64,000 nucleotides of DNA, taken from Kocuria sp. GTDB lineage: Bacteria > Actinomycetota > Actinomycetes > Actinomycetales > Micrococcaceae. The notes below the pieces were generated by a model. The model was given only the letters and a program-made list of their open reading frames with translations. It was not told where the DNA came from and made no database searches. A program made the translations under genes and the position numbers. Below are positions 24,644 through 36,619 of this stretch, piece by piece. Where the stretch lies: assembly GCA_030524035.1 (NCBI GenBank), contig JAUNHG010000003.1, positions 1 to 64,000 of the forward strand, given 5' to 3'. Position 1 is the first letter of the stretch. Each line of letters starts with the position of its first letter.

Positions 24644-27214
24644 TCAACCGCGCAGGACAGCCCCGTGCCTCTCTGCCGCTAAAGCTACCGCCGCGTCACG
24701 TGAAGCCGATGCTTCCTCCGACGTCAGAGTCCGATCTGGGGCGCGGAAACGCATGGCCACCGCCACAGATTTTTTACCTTCCGGCAAGTGCTCGCCATAG
24801 TAGAGATCGAAAACTCTGGCTTCTTCCAGAAGATCGCCAGCACCTTCACGCAGGGTCTGCACCAACGTCCCAGCGGGGAGCGTGGTCTCCACCAACAACG
24901 CCACGTCCTGAGTGGCTGCCGTATGCGTGGACAGCTCCTGCGCCTGGACTTCCCGTGGACGGGCAGCCATCACGGCACTGAGGTCCAACTCCATGGCGCA
25001 ACTGCGTTCTGGCAGGTTAGATAACCCCACCACCTGGGGGTGTAATTCACCGGCCCACCCCACGAACGTCCCATCAACAGTACTGAAACGCGCGGTGCGG
25101 CCCGGATGGAATCCTTGGTGTGTTCCCTGGGTGATCTCCAGTTCCACCCCCAAGACATCACCAACCATCAGGGCATAGTCCACAGCATCTTGCCAATCCA
25201 CCCGGCGAGGAGTCAGCCCAGGCGATGGCGCAACATCCTGCCCCGCGAGCACTGCGGCCACTCGCCAAGGTTGTTGCGGAATACCGGCGTTAAGCTCAGT
25301 AAGGACATCCGCCGGTAGCTTCACGCCACCAGCGGGTAGTTGTGAGCCCCCCATACGCTGACCGGGCAAAAAGACCATACCCACCTGGAACAAGGCGACG
25401 TCGCGAAAACCCCGCGAGTAATTACGCTGCACCGTTTCCAACATGGTGGGAATCAACGAAACCCGTAGGAAACTCCTGGCTTCAGCAATGGGGTTAGACA
25501 ACTTAATGCCTGGGATTGTGGCGTCCGGTTCGGCAGAACCCCACAGGTTGTTTTGTTCCTGGGACACAAACGGATAGTCCAAAATTTCGGTCAGACCGGC
25601 AGCAGCCAATACGTTCATCACACGACGACGCCCAGCCTGCTCATCGGTGAGACCGCGCCCAGGGGGTGCAACCGGTAAACGCGAAGGAATCTTGTGGTAG
25701 CCATCCAACCGAGCAACTTCCTCCGCAAGGTCTTCTTCTGCCACCAGATCCGGACGCCACGATGGCGGAGTCACGTCCCATGCATCAGGAGCTTCAGGAA
25801 CAACCTCCAGGTGACAGCCAGTCATGGCCAGTAACTGTTCGATCTGCTCCGGCGTGTAGTCCACGCCCACGCGATCTACGGGATAAGACGCACGAAGTCG
25901 TACCACCTGCGGTTCAGGGCGGGGCTGAGCCAGAACTTCCCCAGCATCTGGGCGCGCCTGGCCACCAGCTAGCTGTTCCAAAAGATCAACCGCGCGCTGA
26001 GCTGCGGCGGCCTGGATCTGGGGATCCACAAAACGTTCAAATCGTTTGGAGGCCTCCGAAGACAGTCGATGGCGTCGAGCAGAGCGAGCGACCGTTATGG
26101 GATCAAAATGCGCAGACTCCACCACGATGTCGGTCGTTTCCGCCGTGACTTCTGTGGAAGAGCCACCCATAAGACCCGCAAGCCCAATGGGACCAGAAGC
26201 ATCCGCGATCACTAAGTCTTCAGGGTCAAGATCACGCTGCTTATGGTCCAAAGTGCGCAGGGTTTCTCCCGGAGCGGCTCGACGCACCGTAAATCCATTG
26301 TGGACCCGTGTTGCGTCATAGAAATGCAGTGGTTGACCGTACTCCAACATGACGTAGTTGGAGATATCAACAGGCAAACTCAAACTACGAATCCCCGCCA
26401 ATCGCAAGCGTGAAGCCATCCACATAGGGGTTGGCGCACTGGGATTCACACCGGTGACGACCCGGGTGACGAAGCGGTCACACCCAGGCACTCCATTGAT
26501 AGGGCTGTGGTCGGCCAATGTCACCGGTACAGCATCATTCACTGTGCCTTGCGGCGCCCGCGCAGCAGCTTCTAGGACAAAATCATGGAACGGCCGGTCC
26601 ACCGCATGGCAGTATTCACGGGCCACCCCCCGAAGGGACAACGCATATCCGCGATCCGGAGTGACGTTAATTTCGGCGGCTTCATCATCAAGCCCCAGCA
26701 ATCCTAAGGCATCCGAACCGACTTCCGGGTCCAGGCCAATCCGTGAAAGCACCAGGATGCCGTCATGGTCATCACCAATTCCGAGCTCCCGGACAGAGGC
26801 GATCATTCCGGCGGAAACATGTCCGTAAGTACGGCGCGGGGTGATCCGAAAATCCCCAGGCAGCACGGCACCGGGTAGAGTCACGACCACTTTGTCACCG
26901 ACATCAAAATTATGGGCACCGCACACAATGCCCTGGATGCCGGAAGGCTCGATGCCATCGCCGCTCAAGCGTTGCTCCTGGCCTTCCGGGACAACCCTGA
27001 CCTGACACCAGTTCACCGTCTTACCGTTGGAGTGTTCTTCTGGTTCCCGTGACAACACCTGACCCACCACAATGGGCCCCTGAATCTCATTTTGAGGACG
27101 GTGAACATCTTCTTCCTCAAACCCCACTGACACCAAGGTTTCTAAAACCTGTTCGGCCGTGGCATCTTCCGGGACGGGTGCGTATTCCCGCAACCATGAC
27201 AAAGGAACTCGCAT
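24644..27214 (-). CDS. pheT: phenylalanyl-tRNA synthetase beta subunit
   Basis: 856 residues. Partner of PheS in the alpha2-beta2 enzyme. An N-terminal tRNA-binding OB domain (about 40-160, IVCGAHNFDVGDKV) is followed by the B3/B4 editing region, the B5 domain and the catalytic-like core. A C-terminal FDX-ACB anticodon-binding domain ends in RAPDRTLTSEEASAS. The length is normal for actinobacteria. It starts one base after the pheS stop, so the subunits are translated together. Confidence 0.97.
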   Translation of the reverse strand: MRVPLSWLREYAPVPEDATAEQVLETLVSVGFEEEDVHRPQNEIQGPIVVGQVLSREPEEHSNGKTVNWCQVRVVPEGQEQRLSGDGIEPSGIQGIVCGAHNFDVGDKVVVTLPGAVLPGDFRITPRRTYGHVSAGMIASVRELGIGDDHDGILVLSRIGLDPEVGSDALGLLGLDDEAAEINVTPDRGYALSLRGVAREYCHAVDRPFHDFVLEAAARAPQGTVNDAVPVTLADHSPINGVPGCDRFVTRVVTGVNPSAPTPMWMASRLRLAGIRSLSLPVDISNYVMLEYGQPLHFYDATRVHNGFTVRRAAPGETLRTLDHKQRDLDPEDLVIADASGPIGLAGLMGGSSTEVTAETTDIVVESAHFDPITVARSARRHRLSSEASKRFERFVDPQIQAAAAQRAVDLLEQLAGGQARPDAGEVLAQPRPEPQVVRLRASYPVDRVGVDYTPEQIEQLLAMTGCHLEVVPEAPDAWDVTPPSWRPDLVAEEDLAEEVARLDGYHKIPSRLPVAPPGRGLTDEQAGRRRVMNVLAAAGLTEILDYPFVSQEQNNLWGSAEPDATIPGIKLSNPIAEARSFLRVSLIPTMLETVQRNYSRGFRDVALFQVGMVFLPGQRMGGSQLPAGGVKLPADVLTELNAGIPQQPWRVAAVLAGQDVAPSPGLTPRRVDWQDAVDYALMVGDVLGVELEITQGTHQGFHPGRTARFSTVDGTFVGWAGELHPQVVGLSNLPERSCAMELDLSAVMAARPREVQAQELSTHTAATQDVALLVETTLPAGTLVQTLREGAGDLLEEARVFDLYYGEHLPEGKKSVAVAMRFRAPDRTLTSEEASASRDAAVALAAERHGAVLRG

Positions 27215-27215
27215 C

Positions 27216-28337
27216 TTAGACCTCCAACCCGAAGTGCTGAGTAAAGCGGATATCGCCTTCTACTATGTCGTGCATATCCGGCACGTTGTTGCGGAACATC
27301 AACGTGCGGTCGATTCCCATACCAAAAGCGAATCCGGAGTAGACCTCCGGGTCCACCCCGGCGGAGCGGAGGACATTGGGATGCACCATGCCACACCCCC
27401 CCCATTCAATCCACCGAGGTCCCCCTTTGGCGTTTGGATGCCATACATCCAGTTCAGCGGAAGGCTCCGTGAATGGAAAGAAGTTAGGACGCAACCGGAT
27501 TTTAGCTTCAGATCCCAGCATCTGCCGGGCAAAGTGTTCCAACGTGCCTTTGAGATCAGACATTGCTAATCCACGGTCCACAGCCAACCCTTCAATTTGA
27601 TGGAACACCGGAGTGTGTGTGGCATCCAGTTCATCGGTGCGGAATACACGCCCCGGGGCTACCACATACACCGGCAGATCACGGGTCAGTAAGGAACGCA
27701 TCTGCACCGGAGAAGTATGGGTACGTAAAACCAAGTGAGAATCCACCGGGTCCACAAAAAAAGTATCCACTAATTGTCGAGCCGGGTGATCAGGGGCAAA
27801 ATTCAAAGAATCAAAGTTGTACCACTCAGATTCAATTTCTGGGCCTTCTGCAACTTCCCAACCCATACCAATAAAAATATCGGAAGCCCGTTCCATAAGC
27901 GCACTAATCGGGTGACGCCCGCCAATACGCCGACGACGCCCGGCAGCCGTGACATCTACTGCCTCTTCGACCAGGATGCGCTGCGCATGTTCCGCCTCCA
28001 GGGTTTCCTGACGTTGGGCGATAGCACGGTTAACCCGACCACGGGCCTGTCCCATAAGTTTGCCCGCCACAGATTTCTGCTCTTTGGGCAAGGTCCCAAT
28101 CATGCGGTTACCCAGCACCAAAGGGGATTTTTCACCGGTATGTGCCAAACGCGCCAGTTTCAGCTGCTCCACATCGCTGGCGGCCTCAATCTGCTCAAGA
28201 GCAGTCTGTACCGCAGCATCAACAGCCTGTTCATCCGTAGGGTCCACCGCGACACCCGGCGTAGGTGCTTTTTTACCGTCATCGTGAAGGTTGGCAGGGT
28301 GTGATTGCGGCATTTCTGTGGGTGTGCTCTCGGGCAT
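27216..28337 (-). CDS. pheS: phenylalanyl-tRNA synthetase alpha subunit
   Basis: A class II synthetase, 373 residues. The N-terminal coiled coil is followed by motif 1 ([17 protein letters not shown]), the motif 2 region ([19 protein letters not shown]) and motif 3 ([14 protein letters not shown]). The N-terminus carries about 35 poorly conserved polar residues, and later in-frame starts are possible. Its nearest upstream neighbour is the GntR regulator gene, 123 bases away on the same strand. No leader peptide or T-box is visible. Confidence 0.96.
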
Positions 28338-28460
28338 GTAATTCCTTGACGCTCTACATGTTCGGTGACGTATTCCCGCACAAGGCCTGTGGCGCGCGTC
28401 GGGCAGGACCCAGTCTAGCGAGCACCGAAAGTAGCACGTACCATCAGCAACCCGACTGCT

Positions 28461-29180
28461 TCAATCCAGGAAACCACGCAACAAAAATTCCGTACCTCGT
28501 ATATGGCTCACCATCAGCTCACGGGCACGGTCGGACTCCCCGCGTTCAATCGCCATGGTGATCTCGCGGTGCTGTTGATGTGAATGCTCCACATTCGTTG
28601 CCATCACGGGAATCTCGTCCAACAAGGCGTTAATAGTGGCTCTGTTGTCTGCCACCGCAGCCACAAGCGACGCTGATCCGGCCAGTTCAGCGATGGCGAT
28701 ATGAAACCTGGAATCTAGAGGGCGGTAAGTATCTTCGGTCGCCGAACAGGCATCATCAAGGCAAGAACGCAGATAATCCCGGGCAGCTACAGGAAGTTCT
28801 GCTTCTGCGGCCATCGCGGCTGCTGCCGGCTCAACAACTGCTCGGAATCGCAAAGCATCAATCCGCTGGCGGGCTGGTACAGCGTGAGGCTGTCCACTGG
28901 CTGTGCCACCTGCGGAACGTACGTAAGTTCCGCCGTAACGGCCACGCTGAACGTCAATCACCCCGACCCGCTGCATATCAGCTAAAGCATCCCGTAACGT
29001 CGCGCGCGAAACACCCAGGTGTTCGGCAAGTTCCCGTTCAGGCGGCAGTTTTTCTCCTACGGGGAAAACACCAATCTTGATGGCCCGCAGGAGGTGCTCA
29101 ATAGTTTCCTCATACGCATTGCCAGATCTCACAGGTTGTAACACCGCGTAGGGGTCCCCGAATTCTGCTTCTGCCGCCAT
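28461..29180 (-). CDS. GntR/FadR-family transcriptional regulator
   Basis: 239 residues. The N-terminal winged HTH is GVFPVGEKLPPERELAEHLGVSRATLRDALADMQRVGVIDVQRGRYGG (about 37-85). An FCD ligand-binding domain follows, with the family's metal/ligand positions suggested by DSRFHIAIAELAGS and HQQHREITMAIERGE. It is transcribed divergently from the permease that begins the amine-catabolic operon, so it is the likely local regulator, responding to ethanolamine or a glutamylated intermediate (inference). The 34-bp near-palindrome between them is a plausible binding site. Confidence 0.92.
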   Translation of the reverse strand: MAAEAEFGDPYAVLQPVRSGNAYEETIEHLLRAIKIGVFPVGEKLPPERELAEHLGVSRATLRDALADMQRVGVIDVQRGRYGGTYVRSAGGTASGQPHAVPARQRIDALRFRAVVEPAAAAMAAEAELPVAARDYLRSCLDDACSATEDTYRPLDSRFHIAIAELAGSASLVAAVADNRATINALLDEIPVMATNVEHSHQQHREITMAIERGESDRARELMVSHIRGTEFLLRGFLD

Positions 29181-29253
29181 GGCGTTGACTCACCTCAACT
29201 TGCTCGTACTTCACCTATTGACGCATTGCCGTGATGCATGCCACACTCCTGCG

Positions 29254-29287
29254 CATCACAAAGGACTGATTTTAGTCCATTGTGATG
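29254..29287. promoter_or_regulatory. 34-bp near-palindrome, candidate GntR operator
   Basis: Arms CATCACAA-A-GGACT and AGTCC-A-TTGTGATG surround a 6-base centre (GATTTT). Thirteen of fourteen arm positions pair. It lies in the divergent promoter, 74 bases from the regulator start and 30 from the permease start. Confidence 0.6.
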
Positions 29288-29316
29288 AAAAAGCATCAAT
29301 GATCAGGAGTGACGCC

Positions 29317-30750
29317 GTGCATGAACGTGTCAACGCGGAACCAGTCACCGACTCCGACTACTTCAAAAACCGCCGCCTCAAAGCTGGTGCAGCCGGTTGG
29401 GTGTTATTAGCCGGGCTCGGCGTTTCTTATGTGATCTCCGGCGACTTCTCTGGGTGGAACATCGGCTTGTCGCAGGGGGGTTGGGGTGGACTATTGATCG
29501 CCTTCCTCCTCATGGGGTTGATGTACACCTGCATGGTCTTTGGCTTGGCCGAACTGGCTTCCACCCTACCCACCGCCGGGGCAGGATACGGATTCGCTCG
29601 TCGCGCACTAGGACCCTTGGGCGGTTTTGCCACTGGCATGGCGGTGTTAATCGAATACGCAGTTGCACCGGCAGCTATTGCCACATTCATTGGTGGCTAC
29701 ATCGAAGCCCTCGGGCTATTCGGCATCACAAACTCATGGCCCGTCTACTTAGTGACCTACATCGTTTTTGTCAGCATCCACGCGTACGGGGTGGGTGAAG
29801 CACTTAAACTCATGTTCGGCATTACTGTGGTGGCCGTCATCGCTTTGGTGATCACCGCAATCACCCTTCTACCGCACGTCACGGTGGACAATCTCTTCGA
29901 TATCGTCCCGCATGACGCCGTGGGGGCCAGCAGGTTCCTGCCTATGGGATATGCAGGCGCTTTAGCTGCCCTGGTATACGGCATCTGGTTTTTCCTTGCC
30001 ATAGAAGGGGTGCCATTAGCTGCTGAGGAAACAGCTAATCCACGTCGGGATATGCCCCGGGGAATCATCGTCGCCATGATCTTCTTGCTTTTTTCGGGTG
30101 CCGTGATGCTAGTTGTGGTCCCCGGAGCTGCGGGAGCAGAAGCCATGAGCACCTCAGATAACCCATTACCGCAGGCAATACGTGCCATCAGTTCCCCGAA
30201 TAGCGTTGTAGCAAATATCGTGAATTATGCGGGACTGGCCGGGCTGGTGGCCAGCTTTTTCTCGATCATGTACGCCTACTCCCGGCAATTATTCGCGCTC
30301 TCACGCGCCGGGTACCTACCTCGATGGTTGTCATTAACCGGTACTCGAAAGACCCCATGGGTAGCTTTGATTGTACCGGGCACCATTGGTTTTATATTGG
30401 CGGCAGCCACCGGTGACGGTGGCTTACTAATCAATATCGCAGTATTCGGTGCCACTGTCTCGTACGTACTACTGAATTTGTCTCACATCGTATTGCGAAT
30501 TAAGGAACCTCATCTTCCTCGCGGGTACCGCACCCCCGGCGGGATTATTACCACCGGAATTGCCCTCGTGTTAGCCGTGGTGGCGGTCGTCGCCACCTTT
30601 TTAGTGGATGTGTATGCCGCAAGTATTACCGCTGGAGTTTTTGCCATTTCACTGGGGTATTTCTGGTTCTACAGTCGTCATCATCTCGTCACCAACGCAC
30701 CAGAAGAAGAATTCGCCCAGCTTCAATCAGCGGAATCCCAATTGAAATGA
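29317..30750 (+). CDS. APC-family permease, ethanolamine permease type
   Basis: About 477 residues with 12 predicted membrane segments. The sequence has features I associate with ethanolamine permeases of the APC superfamily: VSYVISGDFSGWNIGL near TM1, LPTAGAGYGFARRALGPLGGF, and AIEGVPLAAEETANPRRDMPRG around TM6-7. GTG at 29317 is chosen because AGGAG lies seven bases upstream. An in-frame ATG at 29299 is possible. It is the first gene of a five-gene operon and probably imports the amine used by the downstream glutamylating enzyme. Confidence 0.85.
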   Translation: MHERVNAEPVTDSDYFKNRRLKAGAAGWVLLAGLGVSYVISGDFSGWNIGLSQGGWGGLLIAFLLMGLMYTCMVFGLAELASTLPTAGAGYGFARRALGPLGGFATGMAVLIEYAVAPAAIATFIGGYIEALGLFGITNSWPVYLVTYIVFVSIHAYGVGEALKLMFGITVVAVIALVITAITLLPHVTVDNLFDIVPHDAVGASRFLPMGYAGALAALVYGIWFFLAIEGVPLAAEETANPRRDMPRGIIVAMIFLLFSGAVMLVVVPGAAGAEAMSTSDNPLPQAIRAISSPNSVVANIVNYAGLAGLVASFFSIMYAYSRQLFALSRAGYLPRWLSLTGTRKTPWVALIVPGTIGFILAAATGDGGLLINIAVFGATVSYVLLNLSHIVLRIKEPHLPRGYRTPGGIITTGIALVLAVVAVVATFLVDVYAASITAGVFAISLGYFWFYSRHHLVTNAPEEEFAQLQSAESQLK

Positions 30751-30799
30751 TCACATATGGATCACGCGACCGTCCACACCTGCAGCAGAAGGGAAATCC

Positions 30800-32182
30800 A
30801 TGAACACCCTTGAAAAACACCCACGAAATCAGCGGATGTTAACTCCTGAAAAACTACGAGCCCTCATCGACGAAGGGACGATTGACACGGTCGTCCTAGC
30901 ATTCACTGACATGCAGGGACGCCTCCAGGGCAAGCTGTGTCACGCACAATTTTTTCTTGACTCTGTTCTGGAAGAAGGTGCTGAAGGTTGTAACTACCTT
31001 CTAGCTGTAGATACAGAGATGAATACGGTGGAAGGATACGCCATCACCAGTTGGGAGTCAGGTTATGGAGATATGGCTTTCCGCATGGACCTAGATACCA
31101 TCCGGCTGATGCCCCATAACCCCGGCCAGGTCATGATCCAGTGTGACCTTACTGATCACGCGGGCAACCTTATTCCCATGTCACCACGCTCTATGCTGCG
31201 CAAACAGCTCGATATCGCCCACCGCATGGGATTCACCGTGCTCACAGGCACCGAGCTGGAATTCTGCGTATACAACACCAGTTATGAAGATGCCTGGGAT
31301 TCTAACTACCAAAACCTCACTCCAGCCAATGGTTACAACGTGGATTACAATATACTGGGTTCTCAACGGGTAGAGCCTCTGCTCCGCGAAATCCGCAACG
31401 CTATGTATGGCGCGGGAATGACCGTAGAATCCGCCAAAGGCGAATGTAACTTAGGTCAACATGAAATTGCTTTTCGGTACAGCGACGGAATGGTAACGGC
31501 TGATAACCACGTAGTGTACAAGCTATCGTCTAAACAAATTGCACATCAGCAGGGAAAATCCATAACCTTCATGGCAAAACCCAACCATCGCGAAGGCAGC
31601 TCATGCCATATTCATATGTCGCTGCGTGGCACGGACGGAGAACTCGCGTTCTGGAACCGTGACAATGACGAACGCACCGAGCTCTACGATCATTTCATTG
31701 CCGGAGTGCTTCACGGCATGCGAGACCTAACGCTATTTTACGCACCTAATATCAATTCCTATAAACGATTCGCTCGCGGCAGTTTTGCTCCCACAACAGT
31801 CGCCTGGGGCCTTGATAATCGATCATGTGCGGTCCGCTTAGTGGGCTCCGGACACTCCGCCCGTATGGAGAACCGCCTTCCTGGTGGGGACGTCAACCCA
31901 TATTTAGCATTATCGGCCATGTTGGCATCAGGCCTGTACGGCATTGAACACAAACTGCCCTTGGAACCAATGACCATGGGAAACGCTTACGAGTCACAGG
32001 CACCCACAGTGCCCCGCACCATGCGTGAAGCCCGCGACCTCCTCAACGGCTCCTCGCTGGCACGCGAGCTATTCGGCGATGACGTCATAGACCACTACGT
32101 TCATTACGCTGATGTTGAACTGGATGCTTTTGAATCAGCCGTCACTGATTGGGAGTTGCGCCGTGGCTTTGAACGACTCTAA
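30800..32182 (+). CDS. glutamine synthetase-like enzyme, GlnA4-type gamma-glutamylethanolamide synthetase
   Basis: 460 residues of the type I GS fold. The N-terminal beta-grasp has FTDMQGRLQGKLCHAQFF. The catalytic barrel has the metal Glu in GTELEFCVY and ESAKGECNLGQHEIAFRYSD, plus the ATP/metal motif KPNHREGSSCHIHMSL and the Arg-containing VRLVGSG and MENRLPGGDVNPYLA. The adenylylation-loop Tyr signature of true GlnA is not seen. Together with the ethanolamine-type permease this points to the GlnA4-like group known from Streptomyces. Polyamine-specific GlnA3 is the main alternative. Confidence 0.85.
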   Translation: MNTLEKHPRNQRMLTPEKLRALIDEGTIDTVVLAFTDMQGRLQGKLCHAQFFLDSVLEEGAEGCNYLLAVDTEMNTVEGYAITSWESGYGDMAFRMDLDTIRLMPHNPGQVMIQCDLTDHAGNLIPMSPRSMLRKQLDIAHRMGFTVLTGTELEFCVYNTSYEDAWDSNYQNLTPANGYNVDYNILGSQRVEPLLREIRNAMYGAGMTVESAKGECNLGQHEIAFRYSDGMVTADNHVVYKLSSKQIAHQQGKSITFMAKPNHREGSSCHIHMSLRGTDGELAFWNRDNDERTELYDHFIAGVLHGMRDLTLFYAPNINSYKRFARGSFAPTTVAWGLDNRSCAVRLVGSGHSARMENRLPGGDVNPYLALSAMLASGLYGIEHKLPLEPMTMGNAYESQAPTVPRTMREARDLLNGSSLARELFGDDVIDHYVHYADVELDAFESAVTDWELRRGFERL

Positions 32183-32918
32183 CCGTACATCTCACAACCG
32201 ACCGCGGATCGGGGTGACTACGTATTACGAGGAAGGTTCCTGGGGCACGTGGACAACCGTCGGAGCCATCGTGCCGGGTAGTTACGTGGAATCGGTAGTA
32301 TCCGCTGGCGGTACTCCCCTATTGCTGCCACCGGTAGCCACTGACGTCAGTGTTCTTGACGTTCTGGATGGCTTGATCGTCATCGGGGGGTGCGATGTTG
32401 ATCCCCAAACGTATCGGGCAGATCCCCACCCCGCCACCAGCTCCCAACCACAGCGCGATCACCATGATCTGACACTCACCACAGAAGCGTTACGGCGGGA
32501 CATACCGTTATTTGCGATTTGCCGTGGGGCGCAGATCCTCAACGTGGCACTAGGCGGTACGTTGATTCAACACCTGCCTGATGTTAACGACAATGCAGCG
32601 GCCCATCGCCCAGGTGATGGGCTCTACGGAACCATGAAGTACCACACAACACCAGGCAGCATCGCGCACAGCCTTGTGGGGCCACAAGCAACCGGCCCCT
32701 GCCACCATCACCAGGCATTGGACACGCTGGGGCATGGCTTGGAAGTCACCGCTCGTGCTGCTGACGGAACCATTGAAGCGATTGAATATCCCACCGCCAC
32801 ATGGTTGCTGGGGGTGCAATTTCATCCCGAAGAAAACCACGAAGATCCCCGATTGTTCGAAGGATTCATTAACGCCGCGCGCGAAAGAGGACAGCATGGC
32901 AGAAACGCAGATCATTAA
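32163..32918 (+). CDS. gamma-glutamyl amide hydrolase, peptidase C26 / PuuD-like
   Basis: A class I glutamine-amidotransferase-like hydrolase of about 251 residues. The nucleophile is Cys in PLFAICRGAQILNVALGG, and the His/Glu of the triad lie in VQFHPEENHEDP. GTG at 32163 is chosen. It overlaps the GS gene by 20 bases and gives the family's usual start before RIGVTTYYEE. PuuD homologues cleave gamma-glutamyl-GABA. Here the expected substrate is gamma-glutamylglycine, releasing glutamate and glycine (inference from the operon). Confidence 0.88.
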   Translation: MALNDSNRTSHNRPRIGVTTYYEEGSWGTWTTVGAIVPGSYVESVVSAGGTPLLLPPVATDVSVLDVLDGLIVIGGCDVDPQTYRADPHPATSSQPQRDHHDLTLTTEALRRDIPLFAICRGAQILNVALGGTLIQHLPDVNDNAAAHRPGDGLYGTMKYHTTPGSIAHSLVGPQATGPCHHHQALDTLGHGLEVTARAADGTIEAIEYPTATWLLGVQFHPEENHEDPRLFEGFINAARERGQHGRNADH

Positions 32919-34251
32919 CCCATCCACAGCCGAGATTCTTCGCACTGTTCACGCAGCAGATCTTGGTGAGACGGACCTTGCTATTGAACGTGCTCAACGC
33001 GCTTACGAAATGTGGCGTGAGGTCGCACCGGGCGACCGCGCACGGTTATTGCGCCAATTTGCAGAAGCAGTGGACGCCGACCTAGACAATCTCGCTGCTT
33101 TGGAAGTGAAAAACTCCGGGCACACCATCGGTAATGCACAGGCAGAAGCCGCCAATGTTCGTGATGTTTTGACTTATTATTCCGGGACCCCGGAAACTTT
33201 GCTCGGGCGCCAGATCCCCGTTCCCGGGGGAATCGACGTGACGTTCCACGAACCTTTGGGGGTTGTGGGAGTGATCGTGCCATGGAACTTCCCGATGCCC
33301 ATTGCCGGGTGGGGGTTTGCACCCGCGCTCGCGGCAGGAAACACCGTGGTACTTAAACCAGCGGAACTCACTCCTCTCACGGCCATCCGTTTAGGGGAAC
33401 TCGCGCTGGAAGCCGGACTACCTGAAGGTGTCCTCACCGTTATTCCGGGCAAGGGCTCCGTAGTGGGTGAACGATTCGTCACCCACCCCATGGTCCGCAA
33501 AGTGGTTTTCACCGGTTCCACTGACGTCGGACGTCGCATCATGGCAGGATGTTCAGATCAGATTAAAAGAGTCACCCTTGAATTAGGCGGAAAAAACTCA
33601 AATATCGTGTTTGCTGACGCTGATGTGGAACAAGCGGCAGCAGCGGCACCAGCAGGTGCCTTTGATAACGCGGGGCAAGACTGCTGTTCGCGATCACGTG
33701 TCTTGGTGCAACGCAGTGTGTTGGACACGTTCCTGGAGCATCTAGAACCCGCTATACAAGCCTTCACATGTGCCGATCCACAATTAAGCACCACTCAAAT
33801 GGGTCCCCTGATCTCCCAAAATCACTGGGACAGCGTGTCGTCTTATCTGGACGGGGCTCCGGTGGCTTTCCGTGGCAGCGCCCCCCATGGACCAGGATTC
33901 TGGTTCGCCCCCACCGTGGTGACCCCCGACCTTGATTCCCGGCTATTCACGGAAGAGATCTTCGGTCCAATTCTTTCGGTAGTGGCTTTTGATGATGAAG
34001 CTGAAGCCATCCAACTAGCTAACAACACCGAATACGGACTATCCGGTTCTATCTGGACCCGGGACGTCGGCCGTGCGTTGCGCGTGTGCCGTGGAGTGGA
34101 GGCAGGAAACCTTTCGGTGAACTCCCACTCTTCCGTGCGCTACTGGACCCCTTTTGGTGGCTTCAAACAGTCTGGGCTTGGCCGCGAACTCGGCCCGGAC
34201 GCTCCCCTGGCTTTCACGGAAACCAAAAACGTGTTCATCGCATCCACCTAA
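32896..34251 (+). CDS. aldehyde dehydrogenase
   Basis: About 451 residues of the NAD(P)-dependent ALDH superfamily. The catalytic Glu lies in VTLELGGKNSNIVF and the catalytic Cys in NAGQDCCSRSRVLVQ. The cofactor region has VPWNFPMPIAGWGFAPALAAGN and FTGSTDVGRRI, and the C-terminal motif is FGGFKQSGLGRELG. The ATG at 32896 follows AAGAGG and overlaps the amidase gene by 23 bases. In the operon it would oxidise a gamma-glutamylated aldehyde to the acid, as PuuC does in putrescine breakdown. Confidence 0.92.
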   Translation: MAETQIINPSTAEILRTVHAADLGETDLAIERAQRAYEMWREVAPGDRARLLRQFAEAVDADLDNLAALEVKNSGHTIGNAQAEAANVRDVLTYYSGTPETLLGRQIPVPGGIDVTFHEPLGVVGVIVPWNFPMPIAGWGFAPALAAGNTVVLKPAELTPLTAIRLGELALEAGLPEGVLTVIPGKGSVVGERFVTHPMVRKVVFTGSTDVGRRIMAGCSDQIKRVTLELGGKNSNIVFADADVEQAAAAAPAGAFDNAGQDCCSRSRVLVQRSVLDTFLEHLEPAIQAFTCADPQLSTTQMGPLISQNHWDSVSSYLDGAPVAFRGSAPHGPGFWFAPTVVTPDLDSRLFTEEIFGPILSVVAFDDEAEAIQLANNTEYGLSGSIWTRDVGRALRVCRGVEAGNLSVNSHSSVRYWTPFGGFKQSGLGRELGPDAPLAFTETKNVFIAST

Positions 34252-34312
34252 GTGTGTGATTTCGCTCCCACTATAACGAGAATCACCACATATCCATAAG
34301 GAGGAAGAATTC

Positions 34313-35089
34313 ATGGAAACTATCGCTCGCCGCTTGATCGACCGCACCGCAATCATTACGGGTGGTGCCAGTGGTATTGGGTTAGCCACAGCCAAGCGTA
34401 TGGCTGCTGAAGGCGCAAACGTTGTTGTGGCAGATATTGATCCAGGCTCCGGCCAAGAAGCCGCCGAGACCGTGGGCGGCCTTTTTGTGCAGGTTGATGT
34501 TACTGATCAAGATAACGTGAAAGAACTTTTTTCCATCGCACATAAAACTTACGGCAGCGTGGATATTGCGTTTAACAACGCCGGAATTTCCCCTGCCAAC
34601 GATGCATCCATCTTAGATACGGACATTGATGCCTGGCGCACAGTTCAGGAAGTCAACCTGACCAGTGTCTACTACTGTTGCAAAGCAGCTTTACCCTATA
34701 TGCAGGAACAGGGCAAAGGTTCGATCATCAACACGGCATCGTTTGTTGCAGTCATGGGGGCTGCCACATCGCAGATTTCCTACAGCGCATCTAAGGGGGC
34801 AGTACTATCCATGACCCGGGAATTGGGGGTGGAATTTGCTCGGCAAGGAATTCGAGTGAATGCGTTATGCCCAGGGCCAGTAAACACTGAGTTGTTGAAA
34901 GAGCTTTTCGCAAAGGACCCGGAACAGGCTGCGCGCCGTCTCGTCCACGTCCCTATGGGGCGCTTCGCTGAGCCGGAAGAGTTAGCCGCAGCAGTAGCTT
35001 TCTTAGCCAGCGACGATGCCTCCTTCATCACTGCATCCACCTTCCTGGTGGATGGTGGCATTTCTAGCGCCTATGTCACTCCCCTCTAA
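34313..35089 (+). CDS. short-chain dehydrogenase/reductase
   Basis: 258 residues, classical SDR. The NAD motif TGGASGIGLA is at about 17-26, then NNAG, an upstream Ser and the catalytic YSASK. The asparagine region and a C-terminal VDGGISSAY follow. A strong AAGGAGGA ribosome site precedes the ATG. Generic annotation would be 3-oxoacyl-ACP reductase. In this operon, oxidation of the alcohol of gamma-glutamylethanolamide to the aldehyde is more likely, because ethanolamine needs that extra step compared with putrescine. Confidence 0.9.
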   Translation: METIARRLIDRTAIITGGASGIGLATAKRMAAEGANVVVADIDPGSGQEAAETVGGLFVQVDVTDQDNVKELFSIAHKTYGSVDIAFNNAGISPANDASILDTDIDAWRTVQEVNLTSVYYCCKAALPYMQEQGKGSIINTASFVAVMGAATSQISYSASKGAVLSMTRELGVEFARQGIRVNALCPGPVNTELLKELFAKDPEQAARRLVHVPMGRFAEPEELAAAVAFLASDDASFITASTFLVDGGISSAYVTPL

Positions 35090-35121
35090 GCGCCAGTTGC
35101 GTCATGGACCGACCCTGTACG

Positions 35122-35622
35122 TCACCACACCAGTGGCCCACGTTCCAGACGACGCAACAGGGCTTCGACGATCGGACGATCAGCAGGGATCCATTCGAGG
35201 GTGCGAGCTGCGTCACCATCTAAAGGAATCCAACGCAGCTCTAGGTGATCAGAGCCATCAAACTGACGTCCTATGAGGAGTTCACCGTCCGTTACGAAAG
35301 CGGTCCACACACGCATGGCTGCAGAATCTTTCAACGGCCACCCTTGGGGATGCGGTCCGGGGATTTCGTGAAGAAGTTCGAGCTCAACATCAAGTTCTTC
35401 GCGACATTCCCGGATCAACGCTTCTTCGCACGATGGGTCCTCTGGCTCCACCTTGCCACCGGGAAATTCCCACATACCCCGTAAGGTTTCAGGATAGGCC
35501 CGCTGAGCGACCAAAAAGTGTGTGGGGTTATGGGGGTCGTCCACCACTGCTGCACCCACGACTTGGACACGGAATTCATGGTCGAGCGGGTATGGTCCGG
35601 GACTGTCGGTATCGGCGGTCAC
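35122..35622 (-). CDS. Nudix hydrolase, MutT/8-oxo-dGTP diphosphatase-like
   Basis: About 166 residues from GTG 35622. The Nudix box is GGKVEPEDPSCEEALIRECR followed by EELDV, a good match to GX5EX7REUXEEXGU except that the final Gly region is diverged. The N-terminal strand VQVVGAAVVDDP and a LVAQRAYPETLRGMWEFPGGK loop resemble MutT. It probably cleans oxidised nucleotides, though Nudix substrates vary widely. An upstream ATG would lie inside the neighbouring methyltransferase gene and is rejected. Confidence 0.85.
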   Translation of the reverse strand: MTADTDSPGPYPLDHEFRVQVVGAAVVDDPHNPTHFLVAQRAYPETLRGMWEFPGGKVEPEDPSCEEALIRECREELDVELELLHEIPGPHPQGWPLKDSAAMRVWTAFVTDGELLIGRQFDGSDHLELRWIPLDGDAARTLEWIPADRPIVEALLRRLERGPLVW

Positions 35623-35686
35623 GCCCCCAGGGTAGCGAAAATATTTACCATCGGAGCCAGCCCCCACGGGCAATCCAGAGAAAGCT

Positions 35687-36619
35687 TCAAGACAGCACTC
35701 GACGTTGCGCCCGCGCTGAGGCATAAAGGCATAATGCTGCGGCGGTTGCAACGTTCAACGATTCAGCCTGACCGTAGAGCGGTACCGCAATCCGCTGTGT
35801 CACAGACTTTTCCTGCTCGGAAAGCCCCTGGGCTTCGTGGCCAAATAACCAAGCGGTTGGAGCTGTGAGGTCACATGGAGCGGACTTACCCATGGCAACG
35901 GAATCCTGTAAAACATCCAAGTCCAGTTCGGCGTATCCGTCTGCACCCAGCCGCTGGATACCTGTAACTTCTGTGGCATTCACCAATTCCGAGAAGTCTG
36001 CGTGAGTTACAACCGGCAGGTGAAACAGGGAACCCGCCGTGGACCGCACAGTTTTGGGGTTATACACATCCACCGACCCGTGGGTGAGCACCACAGCATC
36101 AGCTCCTGCTGCATCCGCAGCACGGATTATTGCACCAGCATTACCAGGGTCCTGGAGTCGGCACAGTATGGCTATGAGGCGGGCAGGTTCGGTGGGACCA
36201 GAGTCTTCAACGCGCCGCAAGGCAGCATCCACGGTTGGGGAGGCGATGGTGCATACCGCCACCGCCCCCTGGGGGTTCTGGGTGGCGCACATAGCTTGCA
36301 GAACATCGTCAGTGACCATACGAAGAAATACGCGAGGCAACTGCGAATCCGCTTCCAGAACTGCTTCTACAAGCTTAGCGATGTCTGGGTGGCGTTCCAT
36401 GCAGGAGGGCGTCACATACACGGCGTTAAGCTGCGGAATCGAATCAGCACCGCTGCGCCCATGAGCCATCAATGCTTCACGGACGTTTTGTGGTCCTTCT
36501 GCCAGGAAAAGTCCCCGTGCTGTTCGTGCAGAGCGCCTCGCCAAACCCGCTACTGCCTTAACCCGATCAGCACGGGGGTTGGACAGCAGGGAGTGAGCGA
36601 GGCGTTCCGAAACGTTCAC
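35687..36619 (-). CDS. SpoU/TrmH-family RNA 2'-O-methyltransferase
   Basis: 310 residues. An N-terminal RNA-binding substrate domain (RGLFLAEGPQNVREAL) is followed by a SPOUT knot with the three family motifs: motif 1 RLQDPGNAGAIIRAADAAGA, motif 2 WLFGHEAQGLS and motif 3 VPLYGQAESLNVATAAALCLY. These enzymes methylate rRNA or tRNA ribose with SAM. RlmB- and TsnR-like members share this form, so the target is unresolved. It lies 18 bases downstream of rplT, an arrangement found in many actinobacteria. Confidence 0.92.
   Translation of the reverse strand: MNVSERLAHSLLSNPRADRVKAVAGLARRSARTARGLFLAEGPQNVREALMAHGRSGADSIPQLNAVYVTPSCMERHPDIAKLVEAVLEADSQLPRVFLRMVTDDVLQAMCATQNPQGAVAVCTIASPTVDAALRRVEDSGPTEPARLIAILCRLQDPGNAGAIIRAADAAGADAVVLTHGSVDVYNPKTVRSTAGSLFHLPVVTHADFSELVNATEVTGIQRLGADGYAELDLDVLQDSVAMGKSAPCDLTAPTAWLFGHEAQGLSEQEKSVTQRIAVPLYGQAESLNVATAAALCLYASARAQRRVLS

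Follow-up and report, generated by a model that had tools for sequence, protein, structure and literature searches.

A route in which ethanolamine is tagged with glutamate before it is degraded has been described in Streptomyces by Krysenko et al. (2019; PMC6529630), who reported a glnA4/epuRI cluster (SCO1610-SCO1615, together with versions that bear a permease gene). There, GlnA4 of S. coelicolor was shown to make gamma-glutamylethanolamide and was reported to be specific for ethanolamine, a glnA4 mutant did not grow on ethanolamine, and EpuRI was reported to be a negative regulator; the later steps were proposed, with a dehydrogenase (SCO1611), an aldehyde dehydrogenase (ALDH; SCO1612) and an amidohydrolase (SCO1615). 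A gamma-glutamyl ethanolamine pathway with the same proposed chemistry is also ascribed to Chromohalobacter salexigens and Phaeobacter (Csal_0678-0679 region; PMC10132767, PMC9397018), and PMC10132767, citing Vetting et al., states that in both C. salexigens and Agrobacterium tumefaciens related genes were shown to encode a working ethanolamine pathway. The E. coli Puu pathway uses the same gamma-glutamyl tagging, an ALDH, a C26 hydrolase and an APC-type permease, and the eut pathway acts on the same substrate through the ethanolamine ammonia-lyase EutBC. Here we analyzed a stretch of 64,000 nucleotides from Kocuria sp. (the window; positions 1 to 64,000 of contig JAUNHG010000003.1, assembly GCA_030524035.1, 2.3 Mb in 7 contigs), in which six intact genes at 28461-35089 very probably form an operon for ethanolamine catabolism that has its own regulator and is of the actinobacterial GlnA4 type. 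The gene set and the proposed steps were already published for Streptomyces in 2019 (PMC6529630), so the route itself is known; the analysis adds a gene order that differs from the Streptomyces one, a candidate operator shared with relatives, the insertion between a NUDIX gene and pheS, and the co-occurrence of the ligase with a short-chain dehydrogenase/reductase (SDR).

The six genes are a divergent regulator gene and a tight run of five genes on the plus strand. The regulator (28461-29180, minus strand; Pfam GntR 56.8 bits, FCD 57.8 bits) is of the GntR/FadR type with an FCD domain and is the EpuRI (SCO1614) counterpart, being 44-45% identical to the gene hit by the published SCO1614 primers in three Streptomyces loci (L084-L086). 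On the plus strand, a predicted promoter (TTGACG) and candidate operator (29218-29278) are followed by an APC-type permease (29299-30750; the likelier start is the GTG at 29317, which is preceded by AGGAG), a glutamine synthetase-like ligase (30800-32182), a C26 amidase (32163-32918, GTG start; Peptidase_C26, 186 bits), an ALDH (32896-34251; Aldedh, 506 bits) and the SDR (34313-35089); the amidase gene overlaps the ligase gene by 20 bases and the ALDH gene by 23 bases. Pfam placed the six proteins in GntR plus FCD, AA_permease, Gln-synt_C, Peptidase_C26, Aldedh and adh_short. An earlier annotation made from the letters alone (the original prediction) had described just this arrangement, with overlaps or short gaps, and its coordinates were right. 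All six genes occur in identical order in the other seven ligase-bearing genomes of the genus (7/7), and 75 of 80 named loci (the best 80 of 586 candidates retrieved with the ligase, a sample biased towards near relatives) have ALDH, SDR and C26 genes all within 6 kb; because the order and the neighbors are kept in this way, the six-gene arrangement is not due to chance. Three of the five remaining loci are short or edge pieces (L019, L031, and L066) and two lack an ALDH above threshold (L080 and L090). Among the same best 80 of 586 candidates, a permease (threshold of at least 55%) was found in 17 and a regulator (at least 35%) in 68.

The permease scores 496.7 bits against TIGR00908, the ethanolamine permease equivalog (cut-off 381.75). 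Passing this curated cut-off argues for ethanolamine as its predicted substrate, as had been proposed, and it is evidence on the substrate separate from that of the ligase. The ligase, in turn, lies on one branch with Streptomyces GlnA4 (31 rows, 100/100 support), apart from the references GlnA1, GlnA2, and E. coli PuuA. Three of the four Streptomyces loci, L084-L086, are tied to glnA4 through published primers; of these, L084 and L085 are in this tree and L086 is not. This tree replaced a first FastTree tree, which had oddly low support once rerooted; a weak partial match (L110) was omitted, and the exact positions of the long branches (PuuA, L107, L112-L115, L117, and L118) are not to be trusted. 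The ligase keeps the residues for metal, glutamate, and ATP (E152, E154, E215, E222, H270, E357, G266, R323, R359, H272, and R346), and in the alignment F329 replaces glutamine synthetase E327 and E265 replaces N264, both as in GlnA4 (residue values for comparison from PMC6529630). It stays below the curated cut-offs for true glutamine synthetases of type I (220.2 vs. 429.15 bits) and type III (222.3 vs. 469.6 bits), and on this ground and its position in the tree a true glutamine synthetase was set aside. Its nearest solved structure by sequence is 5DM3 (Csal_0679; 402.7 bits, 41% identical), compared with 68.7 bits for PauA7 (4HPP). Thus a homologue that would group with glutamine or polyamine enzymes, the outcome named beforehand as speaking against the original prediction, is not what we see for GlnA1, GlnA2, and PuuA (tree) or for PauA7 (score); both the branch and the residues point to a GlnA4-like enzyme that would glutamylate ethanolamine.

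A structure model of the ligase (mean predicted local distance difference test score 83.6, low at residues 69-89 and at the C-terminus) served solely to name the nearest solved structures, with Foldseek ranking 11ZS above 5DM3 and VIA-align ranking 5DM3 above 11ZS. By sequence, 11ZS (deposited in PDB as a Brucella melitensis glutamine synthetase) scores 377.7 bits against the ligase, about twice the next entry (176.1), and its deposited name may not match its substrate. A literature search on "5DM3" returned unrelated papers only. One genome of the genus (G026) and Kocuria varians NBRC 15358 have identical ligases (tree rows L005 and L012), and a Mycolicibacterium genome (G028, the source of L081) holds 12 glutamine synthetase-like matches, several of unknown substrate.

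The three remaining enzymes carry motifs that we take to have catalytic roles: SYSASK in the SDR, CRGAQ and QFHPEE in the amidase, and GQDC and LELGGK in the ALDH. The ALDH is the counterpart of SCO1612, as published primers land on the matching Streptomyces gene. The SDR scores 486.3 bits against NF004713 (PRK06057; cut-off 404), and its closest solved structure by sequence is 4WEC (395.5 bits, gapless over residues 4-258); we found no paper naming both "4WEC" and "short chain dehydrogenase".

The role of the SDR is best seen from its distribution. Of the 27 genomes of the genus, that of the window included, eight have the ligase, and it is these same eight that have the SDR and the permease (E <= 1e-60). 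For the order, 159 genomes were compared, again counting the window's own: 33 have the ligase (E <= 1e-140) and 33 the SDR (E <= 1e-95; at most 16 candidates scored per genome, with misses possible), with both in 31. Where both occur, they lie on one contig in 30 of the 31 genomes, with their starts less than 5 kb apart (at most 3,610 bases); the exception is G128, where they are on different contigs; in G028, which has two GlnA4-type ligases, both SDR copies adjoin them. This co-occurrence is strong evidence for the proposed SDR step and points the same way as the earlier claim that the SDR belongs to the route, its substrate being predicted. EutB was not found in the genome itself (0/1) or in the genus (0/27), while the E. 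coli control was positive, and therefore the known cobalamin route is not available; an eut-type pathway was set aside on this ground, and the idea that the locus bypasses the cobalamin-dependent ethanolamine ammonia-lyase stands.

In the proposed pathway, the permease would import ethanolamine and the ligase would join it to glutamate at the expense of ATP, giving gamma-glutamylethanolamide. The SDR would then oxidize the primary alcohol of this compound to the aldehyde, the ALDH would convert the aldehyde into gamma-glutamylglycine, and the C26 amidase, a predicted gamma-glutamylglycine hydrolase, would split the latter into glycine and glutamate; the glutamate would be recycled and the net gain would be one glycine (nitrogen and two carbons). 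With the glutamyl tag, no free acetaldehyde or glycolaldehyde would be formed, and neither a cobalamin enzyme nor a microcompartment would be required. The FadR-type regulator may repress the operon, probably at the palindrome that closely follows the permease promoter, until ethanolamine or a product lifts the repression. The SDR, ALDH, and amidase steps are inferred, in actinobacteria generally. Taken as a whole, the original prediction of ethanolamine gamma-glutamylation agrees with the permease model, the GlnA4 grouping and residues, the co-occurrence and the lack of an EutB match, the substrates of the later enzymes being predicted.

Several observations weigh against this reading. In this organism every function is deduced from sequence. 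Identity between the ligase and the Streptomyces GlnA4 rows is only 60-61%, and the S. coelicolor sequence itself is not among these rows; the 31-row GlnA4 group was defined only after the first tree, and no named GlnA3 was among the references. The fourth Streptomyces locus (L091) shows no regulator, and of the six primers just two match it well. The window's Y183 aligns with Y179 of glutamine synthetase, and the Streptomyces GlnA4 row also has a tyrosine in our sequence alignment; the replacement of Y179 in GlnA4 was published from structural models and depends on the model used (PMC6529630). The association of ligase and SDR has a Fisher p of 2.9e-28, a value that ignores kinship among the genomes, and there are genomes with the ligase and no SDR (G064 and G180) or with the SDR and no ligase (G071, 73% complete, and G087, 62% complete). 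Among the matches listed, the amidase and the ALDH rise above no specific curated cut-off, and the curated model that the SDR passes is named 3-oxoacyl-acyl carrier protein (ACP) reductase. SDRs, moreover, are often active on secondary alcohols.

In another reading, ethanolamine is glutamylated while the SDR does other work (e.g., the reduction of another carbonyl), and the aldehyde comes from some other alcohol dehydrogenase. The curated name favors this, as does Chromohalobacter, for which the table in PMC9397018 lists an iron-dependent dehydrogenase (PF00465) at this step. We nevertheless regard it as very unlikely: the SDR is present in 31 of the 33 ligase-bearing genomes of the order and 8/8 of the genus, it is the sole alcohol dehydrogenase-type gene among the six, and Krysenko et al. 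assign the same role to the dehydrogenase of their cluster (PMC6529630). The genome context, which is that of ethanolamine catabolism, suggests instead that the NF004713 name is probably wrong for this SDR; the name is an annotation rather than a tested function. The same chemistry might also serve for a different small primary amino alcohol (e.g., alaninol, serinol, or 3-aminopropanol), with ethanolamine as a side substrate at most, since a ligase, an alcohol dehydrogenase, an ALDH and an amidase would suit any primary amino alcohol and the families alone cannot tell them apart. We consider such a substrate very unlikely, given the permease's score above the ethanolamine cut-off and the reported specificity of the GlnA4 homologue for ethanolamine among the compounds tested (PMC6529630).

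In favor of a Puu-like pathway for polyamines (putrescine), the ligase, ALDH, and C26 hydrolase form a chain as PuuA, PuuC, and PuuD do, and the ALDH is 37% identical to PuuC and the hydrolase 32% to PuuD. Yet all three enzymes miss the curated cut-offs (ligase 185.3 vs. 650 bits for gamma-glutamylputrescine synthetase, ALDH 328.7 vs. 850 for PuuC, and amidase 90.2 vs. 266 for PuuD), the ligase is only 27% identical to PuuA, and the permease, which passes the ethanolamine model, is 21% identical to PuuP. PuuB uses flavin adenine dinucleotide (FAD) as its cofactor, and PuuR belongs to a regulator family other than that of the window's regulator. No PuuB-type FAD oxidase is present among the six proteins (the rest of the genome was not searched), and an SDR stands where PuuB would be. 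The polyamine pathway is thus highly improbable and was set aside, as ligase, permease, and equivalog cut-offs do not fit it; the earlier judgment that ethanolamine fits this locus better than polyamines holds.

Ethanolamine catabolism of the GlnA4 type, which we prefer, brings the locus closest to the Streptomyces cluster. According to the Figure 2 legend of PMC6529630, that cluster likewise has an SDR, an ALDH, GlnA4, a regulator, a putative ethanolamine/amino acid permease and a glutamine amidotransferase-like gene; its set also has orf1, a membrane protein that we did not look for. Compared with the four Streptomyces loci (L084-L086 and L091), the window's ligase is 60-61% identical, the ALDH 63-65%, the SDR 73-76%, and the amidase 41-44%; the regulator was found in three of the four, and the permease is 58% identical in L085, the sole locus showing it. 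The order differs: in the window, permease, ligase, amidase, ALDH, and SDR form one run with the regulator divergent, whereas ligase, ALDH, and SDR of the four Streptomyces loci have the amidase, and any regulator or permease found, on the opposite strand. In addition, S. coelicolor lacks the permease gene as described in PMC6529630, while the window's operon carries its own.

The resemblance to Chromohalobacter is more limited. The ligases are homologous and the ALDHs belong to the same Pfam family (table in PMC9397018), but the other parts differ by the papers' account: transport would be by an APC permease in the window and is by a TRAP transporter in Chromohalobacter, the alcohol step would fall to the SDR here and falls to the iron-dependent dehydrogenase (PF00465) there, and the last step is assigned to a C26 amidase and a PF05013 amidohydrolase, respectively. 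The table in PMC9397018 (a 2022 review) places the C. salexigens PF00465 and PF05013 proteins beside SCO1611 and SCO1615; in the matching Streptomyces loci, however, the genes are homologs of the window's SDR and C26 amidase. Therefore, with the C. salexigens families as the papers give them, the two pathways share only the ligase and ALDH families. We think it likely that the actinobacterial pathway is a mosaic, in which Chromohalobacter-type ligase and ALDH families are combined with a transporter, an alcohol dehydrogenase, and an amidase from unrelated families, and that the NF004713 SDR is the actinobacterial gamma-glutamylethanolamide dehydrogenase. In Mycobacterium smegmatis, an SDR gene (msmeg_0779) and a permease gene (msmeg_0781) are about 35-fold up on nitrogen starvation, and growth on ethanolamine is GlnR-dependent (PMC4222082); their listed neighbors are a regulator and a phosphotransferase, no tie of the two genes to a GlnA4 cluster was found, and they were not used here.

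The genus of Kocuria varians and related actinobacteria can now be added to the range of a published ethanolamine route that is largely untested. Ethanolamine comes from phosphatidylethanolamine, and the route would allow nitrogen to be scavenged from the lipids of dead cells without cobalamin. The locus by itself opens no long-standing question and is a sound but ordinary find in an actinobacterium with a small genome.

The candidate operator, GGACTGATTTTAGTCC at 29263-29278 (GGACT-N6-AGTCC), lies 45 bases downstream of TTGACG. We compared 11 divergent regions (the window, the seven other genomes of the genus [L092-L098], L013, L014, and L020), and all 11 have, starting 43-49 bases after TTGAC, a palindrome of the type GGACTG-N4-CAGTCC or GTCTG-N4-CAGAC, some of them imperfect. 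The best match to GACTG-N4-CAGTC was rare (<1%) in 500 single-base shuffles each for seven of these regions, although L096 and L097, among these seven, as well as L093 and L095, scored at a site other than the aligned one, and L098 and L020 were at 0.13 each. Because the consensus was derived from the same sequences as those tested, the palindrome is only a lead as the regulator's candidate operator. A related sequence, GGTCTGAAGTCAGACC, is found in L016 about 50 bases upstream of a permease-like open reading frame that does not match the window's permease.

The operon is located within a trmH-NUDIX-pheS-pheT block (window 24644-36619), between the NUDIX gene and pheS. Of the 26 other genomes of the genus, 13 have a detected NUDIX gene 0.1-1.2 kb upstream of pheS and oriented like it, and in 10 of these 13 trmH is there also; in the other 13, neither NUDIX nor trmH was seen within a flank of at most 1.5 kb from pheS. 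The regulator, permease, and ligase genes are at the pheS flank in none of the 26, and the four nearest genomes by PheS (G004, G018, G020, and G022) do not have the ligase. The cluster was likely either gained by transfer or moved within the genome, with losses elsewhere.

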